This document shows positions 667 through 19,610 of a DNA stretch of 64,000 nt, in pieces. The number at the start of each line of letters is the position of its first letter. Position 1 is the stretch's first letter. Below the pieces are notes generated by a model, which was not told the origin of the DNA, did not search any database, and saw only the letters and a list, made by a program, of their open reading frames with translations. The translations under genes and the position numbers were made by a program. Source of the stretch: Flexibacter flexilis DSM 6793 (GTDB lineage Bacteria; Bacteroidota; Bacteroidia; Cytophagales; Flexibacteraceae); contig NZ_FOLE01000009.1 of NCBI RefSeq assembly GCF_900112255.1, positions 1-64,000 of the forward strand, in the 5' to 3' direction.

Positions 667-3600
667 TTAGTGTTGAACGATAATACGTTTAACTGCTAAT
701 CCTTTATTTGTATTGATTTGTAACAAGTAAGAGCCTGTAGCCAAGTTAGATAAGTCTATGGTGCTTACCGTTTCGGTGGCGTATCCTGTCCAAACTTTTT
801 TACCTTGTAAATTCGTAACAGAAACAGAAGCTTCTCCTGTTATTTGTGAGAGATCTACTGTAAATAAACCTGAACTTGGATTGGGATATACTTCAATAGC
901 CTTGGCCAATCCTGTATTAGGTTTTGTACCAACTACAGCTATGTGCTCTACTTTCACATAATCTAAGCCGATGTTATTACCATAACCACTGTAAGCATCA
1001 AATGCGAATCTTACATTTTGGCCTTGATATGCAGCTAAATCAATACTGAATATTGACCAACGTGGCAAGATATGAGGCACATAACGACGCACCGCTAATA
1101 TTGGTGCTTCCGAATAAGATTGTCCTGCATTTGTAGAAACACGTACTGACAGGCTATCCGTTCTGTCATTGTAGCTACTGTCTTGTGACATGGCAAATAC
1201 CAAACGTAGCGTATCGTTGGCCGCTACTGAAGGTAATGCGAAACATGGAGTTGCTAAGCGAGCTTCTAAACCTTTCGAAAAGCTATAAGAGTTGAAGTAT
1301 GCTATTGAACCAGATACAGGACTTATTGAAGGGTTCGTCATGCTAGAAACAAATGACCAGTTGCCTGTAGATGTACCGCTACCTGTGCCTGTTGTTAGCA
1401 TCTGACTACTCCAGCCATTAGGCAATGTATTTGTAAATTCCTCTACGTATGGAAGAGTTGTTACCGAGCCAAAATGATTGATAGTATAACCTTTTATGGT
1501 ATCGTTGGCATGTGTAAGTGTTTCTGTTGCCAAATCGGTATAAGCAGTGATACTGTAAACTGCCGTTGCCGTTAAATCTACTGGCATAGCAAATTCAATA
1601 GTGTCTATTTGACCTACTGCTAAAGACTTGTTGAATGTTTCGTTGGCAGAAACGCTACCTGCTGTTTGGCCATTTACAGTCCAAGACATCATAAAGCCTG
1701 CATTAAAGCTACTTTGTGCTACTGTACCGATATTTTGTACTGTGATTTTTACTTTTTCTGTTGCGGAGAAATCACAGCCATTAGGTTTGGTTGGTGCTAT
1801 TACAGCCACAGCTTTTAGGTCATTTGCTTCTTGTATGAAGATTTCCAAATCATCTATGTGCAAATCATAATCATTAGCGTTGTCAACTGTACCATCGGTT
1901 GCTAATAGGGCAACAATTACTTCTTGTCCCGCATAGGCCGCTAGGCTGTATTGTTTGGTTTGAACGGCAAAGCCTAAATTGTCGGCAGCTGTAATGTTGG
2001 CAAGTGTTTGCCATGAAAAACCACAGTTTGTAGAAATCATTACTTTTAAGCTATCATCTGTGCCCGTCATGTTATCTGCGTCAGCAGATGTACTGGCAAA
2101 ATTGGTAATAGCGGTATTAAAACGAATAGCAGATGTCGGTGTTGCAATAACCTTTGGGCCTACAATCCAATCGCGGTGTGAAGTAGAGAAAAGATTTACT
2201 TTAGCTGTTTTTCCTCCAAATAAAGCTGTTTGTGTACTTGAAATCCAATTAGAAGTTGTTCCTGTTGGTGTTGTTTGGCCAGTAGCCTCTGTGTACAATC
2301 CATTTGTAACAGTATTAAGGTTTTCTCCATCAAAAGTTTCAAATGTCAGAACAGGCAATGGCAATGCCACTGGTGCTACAATTACTTTATTCAAAACGAC
2401 CGAAGAGTCATTGCCTGAAACCGTTGTAGGTTCGCCATTAGCTTTCACAAAGCCGCGCAAACGATAAGTACCAACTTCTGTTAAGTTAAGCCCATCACTT
2501 ACAGTTACATCTAACGTTTGACCGATTGCCAAAGCACCTTCATTTAATGTTGTCTGTAATACACTATGTACACCAGAAGGGCTTGTAATAGCAAGGCCTA
2601 CCACGTCATTAGAAAAGTTACGTGTTACACCGCCAAGGTTTTTGATTTGCACTACGGCTGTAAGATTTTCGCCTCCACAGCCCAATGCTTTAGGGGAAAC
2701 GATAACAGTTGAAGCCAAATCCAGATCAAGCGATATGTATATTTCCAAATCATCTATGTGTAGATCGTAGTCGTTATTGTTACTAATAGTTCCGTCTGTA
2801 GCAAAAAGTGCTACCATGATATTCTGACCTGCATATGCTGCCAAGCTGTATTGTTTGGTTTGAACAGCAAAGCCTAAGTTGTCGGCGGCTGTAATGCTGG
2901 CAAGTCTTTGCCACGAAAGACCACAGTTCGTTGAAACCATTACATTTAAACTATCATCCGTACCTGTCATACCATCAGCATCAGCACTAGTAGAATTATA
3001 ATTCGTAATAGCTGTACGGAAACGTACAAACGTATTTGCATCTGGTGTTACTTTTGGCCCAATAATCCATTCACGACGTGTACTAGAGTAAAGATTTACT
3101 TTAGCTGTTTTTCCACCAAACAAAGTTGGTTGATTATACGAAAGCCAGTTTGAAGTACTGCCACTTGGTGTTTGGCCAGAAGCTTCAGTGTAAAGTCCAT
3201 TAGTGATTGTGCTAAGGTTGCTTCCATCAAACGTTTCGAAGGTTACGACAGGTAATGACAATGCTACAGGGGCAGTAATGATTTTGTTTACTACCGTAGC
3301 CGAGTCGTTTGAGGTTGTACCTGTAGATTCGCCAGCAGCTTTTGCAAAAGCACGTAAACGATATGTTCCTACGTCGCTAAGCTCAATGCCAGATGCTAAT
3401 GTTACGTCCATTGTAGCATTAACGTCTAAAAAGCCAGTATTTAATACAGTACGAACTACTTGGTGTGCTCCCGTAGGATTTGTAACAAAAATACCTACAG
3501 TGTCATTGGCAAAAGTACGAGTTGCACTACCAAAGTTTTTGATCGTAACAATAACAGGAACATTTGTTCCGCCACAACCAATGTTTTTGGGTGAAACTAA

Positions 3601-5478
3601 AACAGTAGCACCTAGGTCATTAGCAGCTACGGTCGTGGCAAATGCAAAGAATGGGTTGTTGGCTACCGCAAAACCAGCATTTGTTGTGCGTGTACCTGAA
3701 GTAAGTGAACCCGCCGAAGAAGAAGCCGAAACTTCAGCCCAAGCACCAGAAGCTGTTGAGGCTTGTGCTACACGGATATTACCTACACCACCTGTCATAT
3801 TGTCGTCTGCACCATAGCTAAATGTAACTGTTGCCGTTGCTGCTAAAGTAGCTGTAGAGCCTAATTTATATACGCGAGCACCAAGTACGCTTGTAAGTGG
3901 GGTGATCACAGCACCTGTTGGAGCAGTAGTTAAAATTTGCGCATAATACACATCATTAGTGCCGCTAATGCTATTAAATACTACGGGGCGGTACTGACCA
4001 CCAGAGCCTAATGGAAAGGTGCGTGTTACAGATGATGTGTTAACTACTAAACTAATAGCACCTTCTATATAAGAAGATGAACTTCCTGAAGGAAGTGTAG
4101 CTGTATTGCTTAAAAGTTTTAAGGTGTCATCAGCATTCTCAACTTTCAAATAACCACTGCTTAAGGTAAGTGGCGAAGTTGATTTGAGGTGTAAAGATGC
4201 TGGCAATGAAACGGTAGAAGACGGACGTTCGATGGTTAAAGCATTAATATAACCATTTATTAATTCTGAACCAGCCGTAATATTAGGTTCAGTAACAGTC
4301 GATGTAATTGCGCTATAGTTAACATTGTATGTGGCCGCTGCTGGAACATTAATGTTGCCAACGAAAGCACCGTGCATTCTGCGTAAAGTAACAGTGTTAG
4401 GAGACGTTACACCCGCAATCGTGATTGTATTATCTAATGTTAAGTTGTCGTATGTCATTACATTACCTGCAGACAATGTAAATCCTATTGTAGCGGCTAT
4501 TGGGCGAGTAATAAGGAAAACCCCATTTGCACCAGTGTTATTTACCACTATCTGACGAAAAACAGCCACGCCATTTACACCTTCGTATGTACCAGTTCCA
4601 TCCAACATTTGGGTTTGGGTTCCATTAAAGTAGAGATTTGTGCTACCGCGTGTAAAGTTTGCATAGCCATTGTTGGTTAGATTTTTTCCTACATAAACAT
4701 TACGAGTAGATGTTCCATTGCCATAAGCCAATAGCGTGTCCATATTGTTAACAACTAGATTGCCTGTTACGGTTAGTGTGCGTGAAAGCGTTCCCGAAAA
4801 ACGCAATACAGAGCGAGTGTCAGCAGCATTAGTACCAATTTCTAGATTGGCAACCGTTGCGTCAACATCTATTAATACTTTTGAACCATCGGCAATCAGT
4901 ACGCTGTCTTGTTCTGTAGGTAATACACCTCCAAGCCAAGTATTAGTGCTGCTCCAGTTGCCGCCATTAGGCGTAGATACAATTTTGCTAGGAGGAGGAA
5001 GCTCTGTAACACACACAGTAAAATTACCGCTTCCTGAACCCGTAGAATAATGATAAACACGGAAATAGTATGTTTGACCTACTACCCAGTCTGTACGCTT
5101 GATAAACTCAGTACCTCCGTTACCTGTAGCATCTTTACAGGTAAGCGCAGCAGATCCACAAGCTCCTGAAAAAACCTCAACAACAGCATCAAAAGAGCTA
5201 GAGCCAACTACTGTAATTTGTTGTCCTGAAGTAGTAGGAACAAAAGAAAACCATACATCATCGTCAGATTCACTGGAACTGCTACAAACCGATTGCGGAG
5301 GCAAAGATGCTGTTGCATTGGTTGATGATGCGGCTGTAGGTGTACATACAATGCTAGGGGTGAGGGGGAATGCTCCTGCACAATTATCATTGTTGGGTTG
5401 TTGTGCCAGTGCCATTGTAGGCAATGCTCCGAACGCCAATAATTGAAGACAAAGCCTCGTAATTGTTCGTTTCATCAT
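667..5478 (-). CDS. Large secreted T9SS-sorted adhesin-like protein
   Basis: This 1603-residue protein is exported and probably attached to the cell surface. Residues 1-25 form a signal peptide ending in 'MALA'. Residues about 70-155 resemble a pre-peptidase C-terminal/beta-sandwich domain ('DDVWFSFVP', then 'YYFRVYHY'). Residues about 170-600 are beta-rich and begin with a G8-like segment ('NWSSTNTWLGGVLPT'). Two copies of a 300-residue unit follow (about 612-1212), each ending in a MAM/cleaved-adhesin-like fold marked by 'DYDLHIDDLEI'. A third, diverged unit precedes a type A sorting domain from about residue 1527 ('VYPNPSSGLFTVDLS' to 'GLAVKRIIVQH'). That domain directs export by the type IX system and is normally cleaved. 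The ligand is unknown. The gene stands alone between its own terminator and a divergent GH97 gene. Confidence 0.9.
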   Translation of the reverse strand: MMKRTITRLCLQLLAFGALPTMALAQQPNNDNCAGAFPLTPSIVCTPTAASSTNATASLPPQSVCSSSSESDDDVWFSFVPTTSGQQITVVGSSSFDAVVEVFSGACGSAALTCKDATGNGGTEFIKRTDWVVGQTYYFRVYHYSTGSGSGNFTVCVTELPPPSKIVSTPNGGNWSSTNTWLGGVLPTEQDSVLIADGSKVLIDVDATVANLEIGTNAADTRSVLRFSGTLSRTLTVTGNLVVNNMDTLLAYGNGTSTRNVYVGKNLTNNGYANFTRGSTNLYFNGTQTQMLDGTGTYEGVNGVAVFRQIVVNNTGANGVFLITRPIAATIGFTLSAGNVMTYDNLTLDNTITIAGVTSPNTVTLRRMHGAFVGNINVPAAATYNVNYSAITSTVTEPNITAGSELINGYINALTIERPSSTVSLPASLHLKSTSPLTLSSGYLKVENADDTLKLLSNTATLPSGSSSSYIEGAISLVVNTSSVTRTFPLGSGGQYRPVVFNSISGTNDVYYAQILTTAPTGAVITPLTSVLGARVYKLGSTATLAATATVTFSYGADDNMTGGVGNIRVAQASTASGAWAEVSASSSAGSLTSGTRTTNAGFAVANNPFFAFATTVAANDLGATVLVSPKNIGCGGTNVPVIVTIKNFGSATRTFANDTVGIFVTNPTGAHQVVRTVLNTGFLDVNATMDVTLASGIELSDVGTYRLRAFAKAAGESTGTTSNDSATVVNKIITAPVALSLPVVTFETFDGSNLSTITNGLYTEASGQTPSGSTSNWLSYNQPTLFGGKTAKVNLYSSTRREWIIGPKVTPDANTFVRFRTAITNYNSTSADADGMTGTDDSLNVMVSTNCGLSWQRLASITAADNLGFAVQTKQYSLAAYAGQNIMVALFATDGTISNNNDYDLHIDDLEIYISLDLDLASTVIVSPKALGCGGENLTAVVQIKNLGGVTRNFSNDVVGLAITSPSGVHSVLQTTLNEGALAIGQTLDVTVSDGLNLTEVGTYRLRGFVKANGEPTTVSGNDSSVVLNKVIVAPVALPLPVLTFETFDGENLNTVTNGLYTEATGQTTPTGTTSNWISSTQTALFGGKTAKVNLFSTSHRDWIVGPKVIATPTSAIRFNTAITNFASTSADADNMTGTDDSLKVMISTNCGFSWQTLANITAADNLGFAVQTKQYSLAAYAGQEVIVALLATDGTVDNANDYDLHIDDLEIFIQEANDLKAVAVIAPTKPNGCDFSATEKVKITVQNIGTVAQSSFNAGFMMSWTVNGQTAGSVSANETFNKSLAVGQIDTIEFAMPVDLTATAVYSITAYTDLATETLTHANDTIKGYTINHFGSVTTLPYVEEFTNTLPNGWSSQMLTTGTGSGTSTGNWSFVSSMTNPSISPVSGSIAYFNSYSFSKGLEARLATPCFALPSVAANDTLRLVFAMSQDSSYNDRTDSLSVRVSTNAGQSYSEAPILAVRRYVPHILPRWSIFSIDLAAYQGQNVRFAFDAYSGYGNNIGLDYVKVEHIAVVGTKPNTGLAKAIEVYPNPSSGLFTVDLSQITGEASVSVTNLQGKKVWTGYATETVSTIDLSNLATGSYLLQINTNKGLAVKRIIVQH
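1841..3640 (-). repeat. Two tandem 900-bp in-frame repeats
   Basis: Units 1841-2740 and 2741-3640 align with a period of exactly 900 bp (300 codons). Long stretches are nearly identical, for example those around 1841 and 2741 and those around 1940 and 2840. Each unit encodes a CARDB/Ig-like segment ('VSPK..GCGG') followed by a MAM-like adhesin domain. The high nucleotide similarity points to a fairly recent duplication or to gene conversion. Unit edges are set by the period and could be shifted. Confidence 0.8.
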
Positions 5479-7931
<2,453 letters not shown>

Positions 7932-9405: not shown

Positions 9406-10476
9406 ATGATGACAAATATGTTAAATAACACTGTTGTAATAGATTTATTTTGCGGAATTGGTGGCTTATCACATGGTTTTGTGAAAGAAGATTTTAAGGT
9501 TGTTGCAGGAATAGACATTGATAAGTCTTGCAAGTATCCTTTTGAGGCAAATAATAATTCCGTTTTTATTTTAAAAAGTGTCTCAGATATTTCAAAAAAG
9601 GATATTGCTCCTTTATTTGAAAAAGCTGAATGTAAAATATTAGTAGGTTGCGCCCCATGTCAGCCATTTTCCTCTTATACTTTTAAAGATGAAGAAAAAA
9701 AAGATAACGAGAAATGGAGTTTATTATATGATTTTGCGAGAATAGTTAGAGAAACTCAACCTGATATAGTTTCAATGGAGAATGTATCTCAACTAATAAA
9801 CTTCAAAAAAGCTCCAGTTTTTGAGGATTTTCTTAATTCTTTAAAAGAGTTAGGCTATTTTGTGCATTACGAAGTGGTAAACTGTCCTGATTATGGTATT
9901 CCTCAGAAAAGAAAGCGACTTGTTTTATTAGCATCAAGGCTTGGTAAAATTCAATTAATTCCCAAAACTCACACTAAAAAAACGTACGTTACTGTTAAAG
10001 ATGCCATAGGACAGCTTCCTGCAATTCAGGACGGAGAGGCATATAAAAATGATAAATTACATTATGCAAGAAAACTAACGCCTCTCAATAAAGAAAGAAT
10101 TGAGAAAACGCCTTATGGTGGCAGTTGGAAAGACTGGCCTAATGATTTAAAGTTGGAATGCCATAAAAAGGATTCGGGGAAGTCTTATCCAAGTGTATAT
10201 GGGCGAATGAAATGGGAAGAGCCTGCTCCAACCATGACAACGCATTGTATTGGCTATGGCAATGGTAGATTTGGGCATCCTGAACAACATAGAGCAATTT
10301 CTTTAAGAGAGGCTTCGCTGCTTCAAACATTTCCAATTGACTATAAGTTTTTTGATGAAAAACAGCAAAACTTCTCTTCGGTAGCCATTGCAAGACAAAT
10401 TGGAAATGCTGTTCCTGTTAAATTAGGAGAAGTAATTGCCAAAAGCATTAAAGAACATCTAAAAAATATAGCATGA
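9406..10476 (+). CDS. DNA cytosine-5 methyltransferase
   Basis: A 356-residue C5-cytosine DNA methyltransferase that transfers a methyl group from S-adenosylmethionine. Conserved motifs appear in order: I 'DLFCGIGGLSHGF', IV 'GCAPCQPFS' with catalytic C85, VI 'SMENV', VIII 'QKRKRLVLLAS', a short target-recognition region, then IX and X ending '[14 protein letters not shown]'. All core parts are present and it looks active. The target site cannot be read from sequence. It is the first gene of a tight operon: its stop overlaps the next start (ATGA). The three genes are clearly richer in AT and in AAA/AAT/TTT codons than their neighbours, a sign of transfer. ATG 9406 is very close to the predicted transcription start; ATG 9418 is an alternative. 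Confidence 0.95.
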   Translation: MMTNMLNNTVVIDLFCGIGGLSHGFVKEDFKVVAGIDIDKSCKYPFEANNNSVFILKSVSDISKKDIAPLFEKAECKILVGCAPCQPFSSYTFKDEEKKDNEKWSLLYDFARIVRETQPDIVSMENVSQLINFKKAPVFEDFLNSLKELGYFVHYEVVNCPDYGIPQKRKRLVLLASRLGKIQLIPKTHTKKTYVTVKDAIGQLPAIQDGEAYKNDKLHYARKLTPLNKERIEKTPYGGSWKDWPNDLKLECHKKDSGKSYPSVYGRMKWEEPAPTMTTHCIGYGNGRFGHPEQHRAISLREASLLQTFPIDYKFFDEKQQNFSSVAIARQIGNAVPVKLGEVIAKSIKEHLKNIA

Positions 10477-11588
10477 AAACCTTAGAAGAATCAGAAAAAG
10501 CAGAAGAACAAATCAAGGACGTTCAGGCAGACTATAATTATAGATTTGCAGATTATTCTATTGGCGAACTTCTCAAAAAATTTGTACCTAAAGGGCAAAA
10601 ACCAAATTTTGAAGATGACGCTATTTCGGGGCTTTATGTACCTATTTATCAACGTGATTTTGTTTGGCCAGAAAACATGAAATCTCGATTTATTGAATCG
10701 CTTTTGATGGGTGTTCCTATACAGCCATTGTTTGCTTTTGAGTTAGATGAAGATGGAAATTTAGAGTTATTAGATGGCGTTCAAAGGCTTTCATCTGTAA
10801 AGTCATTTGTTGATAATGAGCTTGTTTTGTCAGATTTAGAAGCGTTAGATACGTTAAATGGATTTTCTTTTAGTGACCTAAATTCAGCACGAAAACGTAA
10901 ATTTTTGAATATACAACTCAAGCTCTATATAATTGATGATAACACAACTGAAGGTGTTCGGGCAGATATTTTTAGGCGTGTAAATGAAGGAGGTAAAAGA
11001 TTAGAACCCGCAGAAATTAGAAAAGGTAAATTTTTAGACAATAAATTTTATGAATTTATTCTAAAAATGGCAGATTCCCCTGAATTTGGCGCACTTTTCA
11101 GTTCTACAAAAGATAGTAAAAAACTAAGAGGAGAAAAAGAAGAATTAATCACGCGCTTTTTTGCTTTTTCTAATAATTATCAAAATTTTGTTCATTCTGT
11201 TAAAGGTTTTTTAGATGATTATATTATAAATGTAGGGCAAACATTTGACCAGCAACAAGAACAAATAATGCAAGATGAACTATTTAGAACATTAGATTTT
11301 GTGCAAAAAAATATACCAAATGGATTTAGAAAATCACAAAATTCTAAATCTATACCTCGTGTTCGTTTTGAGGCTATATCCATTGGTACTAATTTAGCTT
11401 TAAGGGAAAATCCACAATTATTGTTTGCTAAACCAGTGAATACAAAGTGGATAAACTCCAATGAGTTTAAAATACAAACCACTTCTGATGCTGCCAACAA
11501 TAAATCTAAAGTTATTGGAAGAATTGATTTTGTAAAAAATTGTCTGCTTGGCATTCAAGATTTAAACAAACTTACTTACAATGATTAG
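10473..11588 (+). CDS. DUF262 (ParB-like/GmrS-type) protein
   Basis: A 371-residue protein with an N-terminal DUF262 domain, related to ParB/sulfiredoxin-like NTPase-nucleases and to the GmrS part of type IV restriction enzymes. Visible features are 'VPIYQRDFVWPENM' and the nucleotide-binding motif 'LLDGVQRLSS' at residues 100-107. The motif is usually DGQQR; here the third position is valine (V103). The C-terminal half is helical, and no DUF1524/HNH nuclease motif could be found, unlike full GmrSD fusions. It overlaps the upstream methyltransferase by 4 nt and the downstream HEPN gene by 8 nt, so the three are translationally coupled. Likely role: sensing or nicking DNA according to methylation (inference). 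Confidence 0.85.
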   Translation: MKTLEESEKAEEQIKDVQADYNYRFADYSIGELLKKFVPKGQKPNFEDDAISGLYVPIYQRDFVWPENMKSRFIESLLMGVPIQPLFAFELDEDGNLELLDGVQRLSSVKSFVDNELVLSDLEALDTLNGFSFSDLNSARKRKFLNIQLKLYIIDDNTTEGVRADIFRRVNEGGKRLEPAEIRKGKFLDNKFYEFILKMADSPEFGALFSSTKDSKKLRGEKEELITRFFAFSNNYQNFVHSVKGFLDDYIINVGQTFDQQQEQIMQDELFRTLDFVQKNIPNGFRKSQNSKSIPRVRFEAISIGTNLALRENPQLLFAKPVNTKWINSNEFKIQTTSDAANNKSKVIGRIDFVKNCLLGIQDLNKLTYND

Positions 11589-12282
11589 AGATGAATTTAA
11601 TACAAGAAAAGCAGAAATAGACTCATATTACGAGATATTGAGAATAATTGAATTAGAAAGCCCTAATATTTCTGCTTATAACCTCAATGAAGGTATAACA
11701 ACATCATTGCCAATAAACAGCGAGAAAATATGCGCATTACGTTCTACGGCATATTTGCTTCTGTACAATTTAATCGAATCAACCGTCTATAACTCTATTG
11801 TTTCAATATTTGACAGTATTAGCGATGACCATTTAAAGTACTTTGATGTTATTAATGAAGTACAAAAATATTGGCTAAATCAACTTTATAAACACGATGA
11901 CAAAAAAAAGAAAGAAGCGATTATTGAAACAATAATGAATATTGCTATTCAGATTCAAAATGACACAATATCATTAGTATCAAATGAAATAAGCTATGGA
12001 GGGTCTTTGGATGCACGAACAATCCAAAATACAGCCCAGTCTATGAATATTGAAATAAAATACATTCATCAAATGTATAATGCAAGTACTCATGGTACAG
12101 CCTTATCTAATATTAAACAAAAACGTAATTGGTTGGCTCATGGAGAAAAATCATTTACAGATGTAGGCAGACAATGTTCCACTACAGAATTAACTGATGC
12201 AAAAGATAGAGTGTATGAATACTTAGACGCATTTATTACATCAGTAGAAAAATACATAAACGACAAAAAATACAAAAAATAA
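11581..12282 (+). CDS. MAE_28990/MAE_18760-like HEPN nuclease
   Basis: A 233-residue, mostly helical protein of the MAE_28990/MAE_18760-like HEPN group. The HEPN catalytic pattern RxxxxH is present near the C-terminus, R182 to H187, in 'KQKRNWLAHGEKSF'. HEPN proteins of this kind are metal-independent ribonucleases found in defence operons, and this group is known to sit beside DUF262 genes and DNA methyltransferases. An RNase role, for example growth arrest on infection, is inferred. The start overlaps the DUF262 stop by 8 nt. The AT-rich codon use is the same as in the two upstream genes. Confidence 0.85.
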   Translation: MIRDEFNTRKAEIDSYYEILRIIELESPNISAYNLNEGITTSLPINSEKICALRSTAYLLLYNLIESTVYNSIVSIFDSISDDHLKYFDVINEVQKYWLNQLYKHDDKKKKEAIIETIMNIAIQIQNDTISLVSNEISYGGSLDARTIQNTAQSMNIEIKYIHQMYNASTHGTALSNIKQKRNWLAHGEKSFTDVGRQCSTTELTDAKDRVYEYLDAFITSVEKYINDKKYKK

Positions 12283-12300
12283 TTACCTCATACACAAAGC

Positions 12301-12340
12301 AAAAGCGACTGTAACTTATTAGTTTACAGTCGCTTTTGTT
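12301..12340. terminator. Shared terminator of the HEPN operon and rpsB
   Basis: A 14-bp perfect stem (12301-12314 with 12324-12337), with A-run and T-run flanks, lies between two convergent genes: 19 nt after the HEPN stop and 28 nt after the rpsB stop. It can serve both. It shows that rpsB transcription now ends here instead of continuing into tsf. Confidence 0.8.
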
Positions 12341-12364: not shown

Positions 12365-13150
12365 TTATTCTTCGTCTTGAGCAGCAGCTTTTGGAGCTTC
12401 TGACGTTTCGTTGATTTTTGCTTCTTCGTCTTCACGAGTTTTGTCTTCGTCGCGTTCACGTTTGCGCTCCATCAAGCCTTCTTCGATAGCTTGGCCGATT
12501 GCTTTAGTGATAAGGGCGATAGATTTGAAAGCATCGTCGTTAGCAGGGATAGCGAACTCAACCGCAGTTGGGTCAGAGTTTGTATCTACCATTGCAAACA
12601 CAGGAATACCAAGTTTGTGAGCTTCCGCGATAGCGATGTGTTCTCTCTTAATATCCACTACGAAAAGAGCTGAAGGCAAACGGTTTAGGTCAGTTACACC
12701 GCCTAAGATGCGCTCCAATTTCTCTTTTTCACGAGCGATAGTAAGTTTTTCTTTTTTCGCAAGACTCTTGTAAGCCTCTTCTTTCATCAAACGCTCGATG
12801 TTAGAGAGTTTTTTCAAGGATTTGCGAATTGTTACGAAGTTAGTAAGCATACCACCCAACCAACGTTCTGTAACGTAAGGCATTTTAAGGCGACGAGCTT
12901 CTTCCGAAACAAATTCTTTTGCTTGTTTTTTAGTAGCAACGAACATCACTTTGCGACCAGAACGCACGATGCCTTTGATAGCTGCTGTAGCTTCGTCAAG
13001 GCTTGTAAGCGTTTTGTTAAGGTCAATAATGTGGATACCGTTACGCTCCATGAAGATATAAGGAGCCATTTTAGGGTTCCACTTGCGGGTGAGGTGGCCG
13101 AAGTGTACACCAGCATCCAACAAATCTTTATATTCTATTTTTTGAGCCAT
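12365..13150 (-). CDS. rpsB: Ribosomal protein S2
   Basis: A 261-residue small-subunit ribosomal protein S2, with the classical N-terminal block '[17 protein letters not shown]' and '[14 protein letters not shown]'. The C-terminal tail from about residue 225 is highly charged, rich in E, K and D, as in other Bacteroidota. It is the last gene of the rplM-rpsI-rpsB transcription unit. In most Bacteroidota tsf (EF-Ts) follows directly. Here the gene is followed by a terminator and the convergent defence-like operon, and no tsf is in the window. The 100-nt gap to rpsI may carry a leader, but no known fold was recognised. Confidence 0.97.
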
Positions 13151-15865: not shown

Positions 15866-17434
15866 ATGCAACAGTACAATATTTTGTGGGCAGACGATGA
15901 GATAGACCTTCTCAAACCGCATATTCTTTTCCTTAAAAATAAAAACTGCGACATCACGCCTGTAACCAGCGGCTCGGACGCATTGGAAAAATGTCAAGAA
16001 AACAACTACGACATTGTTTTCTTAGATGAAAATATGCCAGGCATGACGGGTTTGGAAACGCTCTCGCAAATCAAGGCAATGTGGCCGCATTTGCCTGTGG
16101 TGATGATTACCAAAAGCGAGGAAGAACACATCATGGAAGATGCTATCGGGGCAAAAATTGCGGATTATCTCATTAAGCCCATCAACCCGAACCAAATTTT
16201 GCTTTCGCTCAAAAAAATATTGGATAACAAAAGGCTCGTAACCGAAAAAACCAACTTGAGCTATCAGCAAGATTTTAGGCAGTTGGCCATGGCCTACAAC
16301 GACCGCATCGGGCATGAGGAATGGGCAGATATTTATAAAAAACTCGTTTTCTGGGAGTTAGAAATTGACAATACCGAAAACAAAAGTATGTCGGAAGTTA
16401 TCGTGATGCAAAAAGACGAGGCAAACTCCAATTTTGCGCGTTTCGTAACCGACAACTACGAAGAATGGCTCAACGACCCAGACGCAGAACGCCCTGTAAT
16501 GTCGCATCAAATTATGCGCAAAAAAGTGTTTCCGATGCTGGCAGACACCAAAGATACTTCGCCTGTTTTCTTTATTTTGATAGATAATTTGCGCTACGAC
16601 CAATGGCGCATTTTGCAACCGATTTTGCAGGAATATTTCTTGATAGAAGAAGAAAGTTCGTACTATTCGATTTTGCCAACGGCAACGGCTTACGCCCGTA
16701 ACGCGATTTTTGCGGGACAAATGCCTTCGGAAATCGAACGCCAATATCCAAACCTTTGGGTTGGCGACGACGAGGAAGAAGGCAAGAACAACCACGAAGA
16801 CGAACTTTTGGGCAAACAATTGGCAAAGAACAAGTTAGGACACGTCAAGTTTTCGTATCATAAAATCCTGACTACGGCGCAAGGCCGCGATTTGGCCGAC
16901 AAAATCCCGAATTTGTTTCACAACCAGTTTAACGCCATTGTGTATAACTTTGTGGATATGCTTTCGCACGCACGCACGGACACGGCCATGATTCGGGAGT
17001 TAGCCCCTGACGAGTCGGCGTATCGTTCGCTTACGCAGTCGTGGTTTTTGCATTCGCCATTGCTGGATATTCTCAAGAAAATAGCCGAGAAAAAAGGCCG
17101 CGTTGTGATTACCACCGACCACGGCACTATCCGCGTGAAACGTCCGTTCAAAATCGTGGGCGACAAAAGCGTGAACACTAATTTGCGTTACAAACAAGGC
17201 AAAAATTTAGGTTTCGACTCGACCAACGGCGTATTTGTGGCACGCAAACCCGAACGTTTATTTTTGCCCAAACCCAATGTTTCGACGGCCTACGTGTTCA
17301 CTACGCAAGATTATTTCTTTGCCTACCCCAACAATTTTAACTATTACGTGAACTATTACAAAGACACGTTCCAGCATGGCGGCATTTCGTTAGAAGAAAT
17401 GATTTTGCCATTTATCGTGCTTTCTTCCAAATAA
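15866..17434 (+). CDS. porX: PorX-type response regulator with PglZ phosphatase domain
   Basis: A 522-residue regulator made of an N-terminal receiver domain (1-120) and a C-terminal PglZ/alkaline-phosphatase-fold domain (about 200-520). The receiver has acidic residues D10, D11 and phosphoacceptor D54 in 'IVFLDENMPG', with K102-type 'DYLIKPI'. In the PglZ domain, 'LIDNLRYDQW' and 'ITTDHGTIR' supply metal ligands, and the threonine of 'ILPTATAYARN' is the expected nucleophile. PorX homologues act with the kinase PorY and an ECF sigma factor to control T9SS genes and hydrolyse nucleotides such as oligoadenylates. That role is inferred from the family. Length and architecture match. A hairpin follows the stop. 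Confidence 0.93.
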   Translation: MQQYNILWADDEIDLLKPHILFLKNKNCDITPVTSGSDALEKCQENNYDIVFLDENMPGMTGLETLSQIKAMWPHLPVVMITKSEEEHIMEDAIGAKIADYLIKPINPNQILLSLKKILDNKRLVTEKTNLSYQQDFRQLAMAYNDRIGHEEWADIYKKLVFWELEIDNTENKSMSEVIVMQKDEANSNFARFVTDNYEEWLNDPDAERPVMSHQIMRKKVFPMLADTKDTSPVFFILIDNLRYDQWRILQPILQEYFLIEEESSYYSILPTATAYARNAIFAGQMPSEIERQYPNLWVGDDEEEGKNNHEDELLGKQLAKNKLGHVKFSYHKILTTAQGRDLADKIPNLFHNQFNAIVYNFVDMLSHARTDTAMIRELAPDESAYRSLTQSWFLHSPLLDILKKIAEKKGRVVITTDHGTIRVKRPFKIVGDKSVNTNLRYKQGKNLGFDSTNGVFVARKPERLFLPKPNVSTAYVFTTQDYFFAYPNNFNYYVNYYKDTFQHGGISLEEMILPFIVLSSK

Positions 17435-17753: not shown

Positions 17754-19610
17754 ATGAATAGAAATTCAAATCGTTCATTTGGAAAGTCCTCACAACGTTC
17801 CAAATCTGATAACGATACTTCAAAATCAGCACCGCGCTTGCGCAAACCTGCTGACAATAATTTCCGTGGCCGTGAGGGCCAGTCGGAGTTCAAGAAATCA
17901 AACCGCGACTTTTCGGGCAATAATGACCGTTTTGAGAAAAAAGAAGGCGGCTTCCGCAGCCGTGAGGCTTCATCGTCTCGCCCAGATTTCAAAAAATCTT
18001 CTGGCCGCGATTTCTCCTCAGATAGAGGCAATCGTTTTGAGAAAAAAGAAGGCGGTTTCCGTAGCCGCGAAGAGTCTTCATCTCGTCCTGACTTCAAAAA
18101 ATCTTCTGGCCGCGATTTCTCCTCAGATAGAGGCAATCGTTTCGAGAAAAAAGAAGGTGGCTTCCGCAGCCGCGAAAATTCTTCATCTCGTCCTGACTTC
18201 AAAAAATCTTCTGATCGCGATTTCTCGTCGGACAAAGGCGGACGTTTTGAGAAAAAAGAAGGTGGCTTCCGTAGCCGCGAAAATTCTTCTTCTCGTTCAG
18301 ACTTCAAAAAATCTTCTGACCGCGATTTTTCGTCGGACAGAGGTGGACGTTTTGATAAAAAAGAAGGTGGTTTCCGCAGCCGCGAAAATTCTTCGTTCCG
18401 TTCAGACTTCAAAAAATCTTCGGACCGCGACTTCTCGTCGGACAGAGGCGGACGTTTTGATAAAAAAGAAGGTGGTTTCCGCAGCCGCGAAAATTCTTCA
18501 TCTCGTCCTGACTTCAAAAAATCTTCTGACCGCGATTTTTCGTCGGACAGAGGCGGACGTTTTGATAAAAAAGAAGGCGGTTTCCGCAGCCGCGAAAATT
18601 CTTCATCTCGTCCTGACTTCAAAAAATCTTCTGACCGCGATTTTTCATCGGACAAAGGCGGCAACAGAGAAGGTGGTTATTTTGAAAGAAAAGAAGCCAA
18701 TGCTCGTAGCCGCGCAGAAGCTGCACGCCCTAAATTCAAAAGCAGAGGCGGTCGCAACAACTTTTCAGAAGACAAATCAGATAAATTTGTTAATAAATAT
18801 GCACGTCGTAACAATGATTATGATCAAGATGGCCCACCGTCTTACGACTTCAAACATTACGAAAAGCACCACAAAAACGAACCTGATCGCAGCATAGAAC
18901 AAGGCATTCGCCTGAACCGTTATATTGCAAATTCGGGTGTTTGTTCGCGCCGCGATGCCGACAAATTGATTCACGATGGTCTTATTTCTGTTAATGGCAC
19001 TGTCGTTACGGAGATGGGTTTTCGCGTGCAACCAACCGACGTAGTGAAATACGGAAAAAAAAAATTAAGTCGTGAAAAGAATGTTTATGTGCTTTTGAAC
19101 AAGCCGAAAGATTTCATAACGACTACCGACGACCCTGAAGAGCGCAAAACAGTCATGCAGTTGGTGGCTTCGGCTTGCGAGGAACGCATTTACCCAGTGG
19201 GTCGCCTCGACCGCAACACAACGGGTTTGCTTTTACTTACCAACGACGGCGAGTTGGCCGACAAACTTTCGCACCCATCCCAAAAAATTACCAAAATTTA
19301 TCAGGTAGATTTGGACAAACCGCTTACCGAAGAAGATTATGAAAAAATCATGGCGGGTTTGGAATTGGAAGATGGTACAGCGCAAGTGGACGAATTGGAA
19401 ATCCTTTCGCCAGATCGTAGCATTTTGGGAATTGCCATTCATATTGGCCGTAACCGTATCGTTAGACGTATTTTCGAACATTTGGGTTATGACGTTGTTC
19501 GCCTCGACCGCGTAATGTACGCAGGCCTTGACAAGAAAAATTTGTCGCGCGGACACTGGCGTTATCTCACTGAAAAAGAAGTGATTAACCTCAAATATTT
19601 CTTAAAATAA
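17754..19610 (+). CDS. RsuA/RluB-family pseudouridine synthase with repeat extension
   Basis: A 618-residue protein. The C-terminal 235 residues are an RsuA/RluB-type rRNA pseudouridine synthase: an S4 RNA-binding domain from about 384 ('IRLNRYIANSGVCSRRDAD') and a catalytic domain with D486 in 'GRLDRNTTGLLLLTNDG'. It converts a uridine in rRNA to pseudouridine, by family most likely in 23S rRNA. The first 380 residues are disordered and rich in R, S, K, D, G and F, with seven 35-residue repeats ('KKEGGFRSRE', 'SSRPDFKKSS', 'RDFSSDRGG'). Arg/Ser- and Phe/Gly-rich tails of this kind bind RNA or phase-separate, so a role in RNA capture is plausible. Many Bacteroidota homologues carry charged N-terminal extensions, but copy number varies. 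Confidence 0.9.
   Translation: MNRNSNRSFGKSSQRSKSDNDTSKSAPRLRKPADNNFRGREGQSEFKKSNRDFSGNNDRFEKKEGGFRSREASSSRPDFKKSSGRDFSSDRGNRFEKKEGGFRSREESSSRPDFKKSSGRDFSSDRGNRFEKKEGGFRSRENSSSRPDFKKSSDRDFSSDKGGRFEKKEGGFRSRENSSSRSDFKKSSDRDFSSDRGGRFDKKEGGFRSRENSSFRSDFKKSSDRDFSSDRGGRFDKKEGGFRSRENSSSRPDFKKSSDRDFSSDRGGRFDKKEGGFRSRENSSSRPDFKKSSDRDFSSDKGGNREGGYFERKEANARSRAEAARPKFKSRGGRNNFSEDKSDKFVNKYARRNNDYDQDGPPSYDFKHYEKHHKNEPDRSIEQGIRLNRYIANSGVCSRRDADKLIHDGLISVNGTVVTEMGFRVQPTDVVKYGKKKLSREKNVYVLLNKPKDFITTTDDPEERKTVMQLVASACEERIYPVGRLDRNTTGLLLLTNDGELADKLSHPSQKITKIYQVDLDKPLTEEDYEKIMAGLELEDGTAQVDELEILSPDRSILGIAIHIGRNRIVRRIFEHLGYDVVRLDRVMYAGLDKKNLSRGHWRYLTEKEVINLKYFLK
17928..18662 (+). repeat. Seven tandem 105-bp repeats inside the pseudouridine synthase gene
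   Basis: Copies begin at 17928, 18033, 18138, 18243, 18348, 18453 and 18558, a strict 105-bp period (35 codons). Copies are highly similar, and the last three are nearly identical, which indicates recent expansion by slippage or unequal crossover. The array stays in frame and should vary in copy number between strains. Confidence 0.95.

Follow-up and report, generated by a model that had tools for sequence, protein, structure and literature searches.

Organization of the locus

Within the 64,000-nucleotide stretch of Flexibacter flexilis DNA analysed here (the window), a 2.9 kb segment on the forward strand, positions 9406–12282, encodes a C5 DNA methyltransferase, a DUF262 protein and a HEPN protein (Table 1). 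The methyltransferase and DUF262 reading frames overlap by 4 bp, and those of DUF262 and HEPN by 8 bp. The GC content of the module is 0.318 as against 0.430 for the window, and none of 612 same-size segments is lower; the description of three overlapping AT-rich genes in the earlier note is thus borne out, with the module forming the GC minimum. This copy is chromosomal and lies between an esterase gene and a convergent rpsB, and the strong hairpin at the 3′ end of the operon is probably a bidirectional, terminator-like element. No cognate restriction endonuclease was found, with no further gene from 9375 to the end of rpsB at 12365, in agreement with the earlier statement that a conventional type II nuclease is missing. 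No other defence genes adjoin the trio in the window, and a search for flanking repeats around it as a sign of a mobile element gave nothing convincing. Insertion between rpsB and tsf was considered as a mark of recent arrival and set aside as uninformative, since several same-family relatives likewise lack tsf in the examined flank.

Table 1. Features of the operon and its 3′ flank, in window coordinates
Feature	Position	Strand	Evidence
C5-cytosine DNA methyltransferase, 356 aa	9406–10476	+	PF00145 9.5e-73; PADLOC MTase_II 5.6e-99, DrmMII 3.9e-88
Catalytic PCQ motif, residues 84–86	9655–9663	+	Invariant in 23 aligned methyltransferases
Target-recognition region, residues 200–296, KTPYGGSW...GNGRFGHPEQ	10003–10293	+	Conservation above that of the catalytic half
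DUF262/GmrSD_N protein (ParB/Srx-like), 371 aa, without DUF1524/HNH	10473–11588	+	PF03235 1.2e-24; PADLOC
QR motif, Q60 R61	10650–10655	+	Invariant in 33 aligned sequences
DGxQR NTP-pocket motif, D101–R105, here DGVQR	10773–10787	+	Invariant apart from the variable third position
FxRxN motif, F167–N171	10971–10985	+	Invariant in 33 aligned sequences
HEPN protein, MAE_28990/MAE_18760 family, 233 aa	11581–12282	+	PF18737 4e-24, PF18735 8.7e-07
RxxxxH active-site motif, R182NWLAH187	12124–12141	+	No change of R or H in any aligned relative
Strong hairpin, 3′ end of operon, facing rpsB	12299–12340	+	-28.6 kcal/mol, z -7.3

The methyltransferase and its recognition region

All C5 motifs of the methyltransferase (DLFCGIGG, PCQ, ENV and GNAVP) are intact, which together with the strong DNA_methylase match agrees with its previous description as complete-looking, and the protein is 81–84% identical to its counterparts on four MAG contigs (L002–L005). 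Bacterial relatives and an archaeal one are 54–65% identical to the window protein in the target-recognition region, compared with 44–50% in the catalytic half, and this high conservation of the region holds in both domains of life and whatever the effector partner. The control methyltransferases were chosen by similarity and several of them share the recognition region, so that they form only a partial neutral control and the group with the conserved region extends beyond the subfamily. The unrelated methyltransferases of loci L034 and L124, which are paired with DUF262–HEPN, do not share it and are 20–22% identical in this region.

Conservation of the recognition region implies that one short cytosine site would be retained family-wide, with methylation itself predicted from homology. 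CCWGG, reportedly the target of a characterised DrmMII, and GCSGC, the site of the Z1-type CglI/NgoAVII systems, are candidate targets for the window enzyme. Genes for Vsr-type mismatch endonucleases, which are usual for m5C systems, occur near the methyltransferases of L030, L034, L059, L060, L066, L067, L109, L124 and L148.

The DUF262 and HEPN proteins

The GmrSD_N match of the DUF262 protein is confined to residues 51–187. In PADLOC its best match is NsnA (1.9e-56), the DUF262 component of Menshen, and PD-T4-2_A matches over most of its length (2.6e-34). Residues Q60, R61, D101, G102, Q104, R105, F167, R169 and N171 are invariant among 33 aligned DUF262 proteins, while the third position of the DGxQR motif varies among V, S, T, L and Q. 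The earlier note had singled out DGVQR in place of DGQQR; given this variability the feature is ordinary, and the idea that it points to an altered NTPase was dismissed.

An AlphaFold2 model of the protein (pLDDT 89.7) resembles BrxU, SspE and ParB CTPases in structure comparison, and supports a ParB/GmrS-like NTPase fold with no nuclease half. No DUF1524 or HNH profile of Pfam matches the protein, and because the model contains no strand past residue 154 it offers no beta-beta-alpha His-Me finger. The idea that the C-terminal half conceals an HNH or another kind of nuclease was therefore rejected, this half having no Pfam match and being all-helical in the model, and the claim that the protein is without an HNH/DUF1524 half stands.

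The HEPN_MAE_28990 profile (PF18737) covers the whole third protein with 86.4 bits against a gathering cut-off of 26.8. R182 and H187 are unchanged in two alignments of 26 and 40 sequences, so that the earlier assignment of an intact RxxxxH motif proves exact. The AlphaFold2 model (pLDDT 91.9) finds HI0074, HEPN-MNT toxins and Csm6 at the top of a VIA-align comparison, with Z scores of at most 7.8, a level that helical bundles also reach by chance; for a helical protein these neighbours are at most suggestive. No solved structure matching the protein by sequence was found, and a Foldseek search with the model gave no usable match. Its sole match in PADLOC, which has no model for such HEPN proteins, is a weak one to CARF-HEPN. 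By analogy with its family, the protein is probably an RNA-cutting enzyme.

Linkage of the three genes

Relatives were collected through similarity to HEPN or DUF262 and not through the methyltransferase. HEPN adjoins DUF262 in 80 of 80 relatives kept from viral contigs, with a median gap of 2 bp, and the same methyltransferase subfamily is present in 76 of these loci (73 full, 3 partial). The remaining four comprise L124, which has a divergent methyltransferase and vsr, and three loci without a methyltransferase, in all of which the available sequence ends at or just after HEPN. When the viral loci are reduced at 85% identity, 38 of 42 carry the subfamily. Among loci retrieved from genomes, plasmids and phages via HEPN or DUF262, the subfamily methyltransferase accompanies 21 of 27, as against none of nine in a divergent DUF262 branch (p 5e-05).

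The four MAG contigs mentioned above have the same gene order as the window at 59–84% identity. Plasmids of Klebsiella, Rhodococcus, Rhizobium, Roseomonas, Polaromonas, Phaeobacter and Azospirillum carry the trio too, as do Moraxella and P2-like phages, and here the methyltransferase may precede, follow or converge on the DUF262–HEPN pair. Overall, the known carriers belong to Bacteroidota, Pseudomonadota and Actinomycetota and include chromosomes as well as plasmids and phages. The trio is a real module, linked across several bacterial phyla. The earlier note had staked its proposal on the genes recurring together in other genomes, and they do so widely. In two relatives DUF262 is split over two frames (L005, a Limnohabitans MAG, 4891–5997; L035, the Pedobacter plasmid pMWHK1, 4383–5512).

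Partner exchange around the methyltransferase

The same methyltransferase subfamily also occurs beside GHKL/MORC-like ATPases (21 of 92 non-redundant subfamily members), Z1, helicases of DISARM and a protein like DruF of Druantia. On the methyltransferase tree the DUF262–HEPN label requires 16 changes, at least six of which are forced by well supported branches, and sister pairs with different partners include the Listeria locus L058 (GHKL) with L202 (DUF262–HEPN) and L148 (DUF262–HEPN) with L196 (GHKL). Distance correlations are 0.60 for DUF262–HEPN, 0.39 for methyltransferase–DUF262 and 0.32 for methyltransferase–HEPN. The simplest reading of these comparisons is that DUF262–HEPN would be one exchangeable effector and the methyltransferase the common mark. 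Partner exchange and the conserved recognition region together support methylation as a self mark and DUF262–HEPN as the restriction arm; the suggestion that methylation marks self gains from the pairing of the methyltransferase with alternative restriction machineries, as is expected of such a mark.

Pairs lacking the subfamily methyltransferase

DUF262–HEPN pairs without a nearby methyltransferase are found at L027 (an E. coli IncF plasmid), L035 (pMWHK1), L046 and L056. The pair of L027 (4489–6189), seen on E. coli IncF plasmids, lies between IS100/IS91 remnants, and host Dcm might have replaced the lost methyltransferase there. All nine loci of the divergent DUF262 branch lack the subfamily enzyme, and three of them have an N6/N4 methyltransferase directly upstream (L041, 4312–5610; L042, 4344–5654; L047, 8493–9785). 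In two of these enzymes the C terminus gives an SNase-like match, and L047 has the gene for an MjaI-type restriction endonuclease downstream.

In the P2-like phage 4B2 (L037) the methyltransferase is broken at an 8-G run within the PGGTW recognition motif (about 2358–2368, minus strand). Judged by match length, the run has 7 G and is in frame in two E. coli prophage copies, and has 6 G and is out of frame in one, the prophage of E. coli 2015C-4136CT1. DUF262 and HEPN are near-identical and apparently intact in all phage 4B2 and E. coli copies, including those with a frameshift. The frameshift may reflect a sequencing error or phase variation, or it may show that those hosts can do without the mark. 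Barring sequencing error, phase variation or protection by host Dcm, an intact DUF262–HEPN pair beside a frameshifted methyltransferase would be expected to be toxic were the mark essential, and this counts against the mechanism that we favour below.

Relation to known systems

The neighbourhood itself is not new, and the locus belongs to a known but uncharacterised kind. The table of HEPN families in Anantharaman et al. 2013 (PMC3710099) places the MAE_28990 HEPN ‘in operon with a ParB nuclease and DNA methylase genes’. The window shows this composition, with a HEPN protein of the same Pfam family, a ParB-fold protein and a DNA methylase in one operon, and the earlier remark that DUF262 and HEPN next to methylases were already known is thereby documented. 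The entry is a single table line, which does not give the methyltransferase subfamily, conservation, distribution or mechanism. RefSeq likewise annotates HEPN genes as ‘MAE_28990/MAE_18760 family HEPN-like nuclease’ beside genes for DUF262 and a DNA cytosine methyltransferase. In the literature searched for DUF262 with HEPN, nothing was found beyond Anantharaman et al. 2013 and a review.

Among tested defence systems, PD-T4-2 (Vassallo et al. 2022) also combines DUF262 with HEPN and protects E. coli from T4. The window DUF262 matches PD-T4-2_A below its score for NsnA, and the window HEPN gives no match to the PADLOC models of PD-T4-2. Because no methyltransferase was found listed among the PD-T4-2 components, the methylase does not appear to be always needed. 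In Menshen (Millman et al. 2022) the partner of the DUF262 gene is a predicted OLD nuclease gene, whereas the neighbours in the window are the methyltransferase, HEPN, the esterase gene and rpsB. The type IV enzymes GmrSD, BrxU and SspE share the QR, DGxQR and FxxxN motifs with the window DUF262, but the latter lacks their DUF1524 His-Me nuclease and has HEPN and methyltransferase partners instead.

The same methyltransferase subfamily, and with it this type of recognition region, is found in MORC/paraMORC restriction-modification operons and in DISARM, where the effector is a GHKL ATPase or a set of Drm helicases rather than DUF262–HEPN. The DISARM core proteins DrmA and DrmB are absent at the locus, where the methyltransferase alone resembles a DISARM component, DrmMII; compared with type II restriction-modification, the C5 methyltransferase is present but not its restriction endonuclease. 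Displacement of one effector by another has already been noted for MORC systems. The present analysis contributes the unusually conserved recognition region, the shared methyltransferase subfamily and the exchange of partners around it; no prior description of the latter two was found in the literature searched.

Proposed mechanism and alternatives

On balance, we favour a restriction-modification-like defence module in which a methyl mark, a check by the DUF262 NTPase and RNA cleavage by HEPN act in sequence. The methyltransferase would methylate a conserved cytosine site, as its homology indicates, and so mark self DNA. The DUF262 protein, as a ParB/GmrS-type NTPase, would check incoming DNA and change state where the mark is missing, thereby releasing or activating HEPN, with which it would form a transferable unit. 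HEPN would then cut RNA through a dimeric RxxxxH site, as expected of its family, and stop either phage growth or the cell. Direct observation covers the tight linkage of the three genes, their invariant motifs and the way partners change around the methyltransferase; the sensing and activation steps, the cleavage of RNA and the role in defence are extrapolated from GmrSD-type sensors, the HEPN family and PD-T4-2. Set against this mechanism are the methyltransferase-free pairs, the recognition regions of L034 and L124, and a HEPN protein without a sequence, Foldseek or PADLOC match beyond the weak one described above. A broader version, which we hold tentatively and at somewhat less than even chances, is a restriction-modification system with a sensor-gated ribonuclease arm, within a group that swaps effectors around one fixed-target methyltransferase and its shared mark. 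This group would include DUF262–HEPN, MORC-like, Z1, DISARM and Druantia-like systems, that is, unrelated effectors reading one DNA mark.

Alternatively, DUF262 may itself be a nuclease of ParB/Srx fold and nick DNA that lacks the methyl mark, with HEPN as a back-up suicide RNase restrained in the manner of PrrC/EcoprrI. The ‘ParB nuclease’ label of the 2013 HEPN table and the PrrC-like role proposed in the same source for HEPN proteins of restriction-modification systems (PMC3710099), the ATP-controlled DNA-nicking ParB/Srx proteins cited in PMC12839542 and the ParB-like fold of our model are consistent with this. However, the conserved residues (Q60 R61, D101 G102 Q104 R105, F167 R169 N171) are those of the NTP pocket, the nuclease of active GmrSD relatives is a separate DUF1524 domain that is absent here, and HEPN, present in every one of the viral loci, is more constant than an optional back-up would be expected to be; we consider a DUF262 nuclease unlikely. 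There is a rather small chance that DUF262–HEPN answers modified phage DNA (e.g. glucosylated hmC) in the manner of type IV systems, the methyltransferase providing a linked mark to which DUF262 has to be indifferent. The DUF262 proteins GmrSD, BrxU, SspE and GrwAB sense modified DNA, PD-T4-2 acts on T4 with no methylase found listed among its components, and some pairs have no methyltransferase; yet the branch to which the window copy belongs nearly always keeps one methyltransferase subfamily, for which a modification-triggered nuclease has no evident need.

The occurrence of the operon on plasmids and prophages, the DUF262–HEPN pair being the most tightly co-evolving one and the HEPN-MNT toxins near the top of the VIA-align list would also fit a toxin-antitoxin-like addiction or guard module, with HEPN as toxin and DUF262 as antitoxin and with loss of methylation, through plasmid loss or phage inhibition, as trigger. 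This differs from the favoured explanation in the trigger alone, and the window copy is chromosomal, between the esterase gene and rpsB; we regard such a module as improbable.

If the restriction-modification-like mechanism is correct, the DNA methylation status would control a ribonuclease, joining the self mark of restriction-modification to the RNA cleavage of abortive infection. The conserved recognition region predicts that the same site is protected by many phage- and plasmid-borne systems. One methylome would then inform systems with quite different effectors, and a single phage-borne methyltransferase could shield its phage from all of them.

Other features of the window

A response regulator fused to a PglZ domain is encoded at 15866–17434. 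The type IX secretion regulator PorX has the same fusion, and the PglZ domain here is no sign of BREX. A 105-bp tandem repeat in seven copies (91% matches) lies at 17928–18661, where it encodes a low-complexity extension at the N terminus of an S4-domain pseudouridine synthase.
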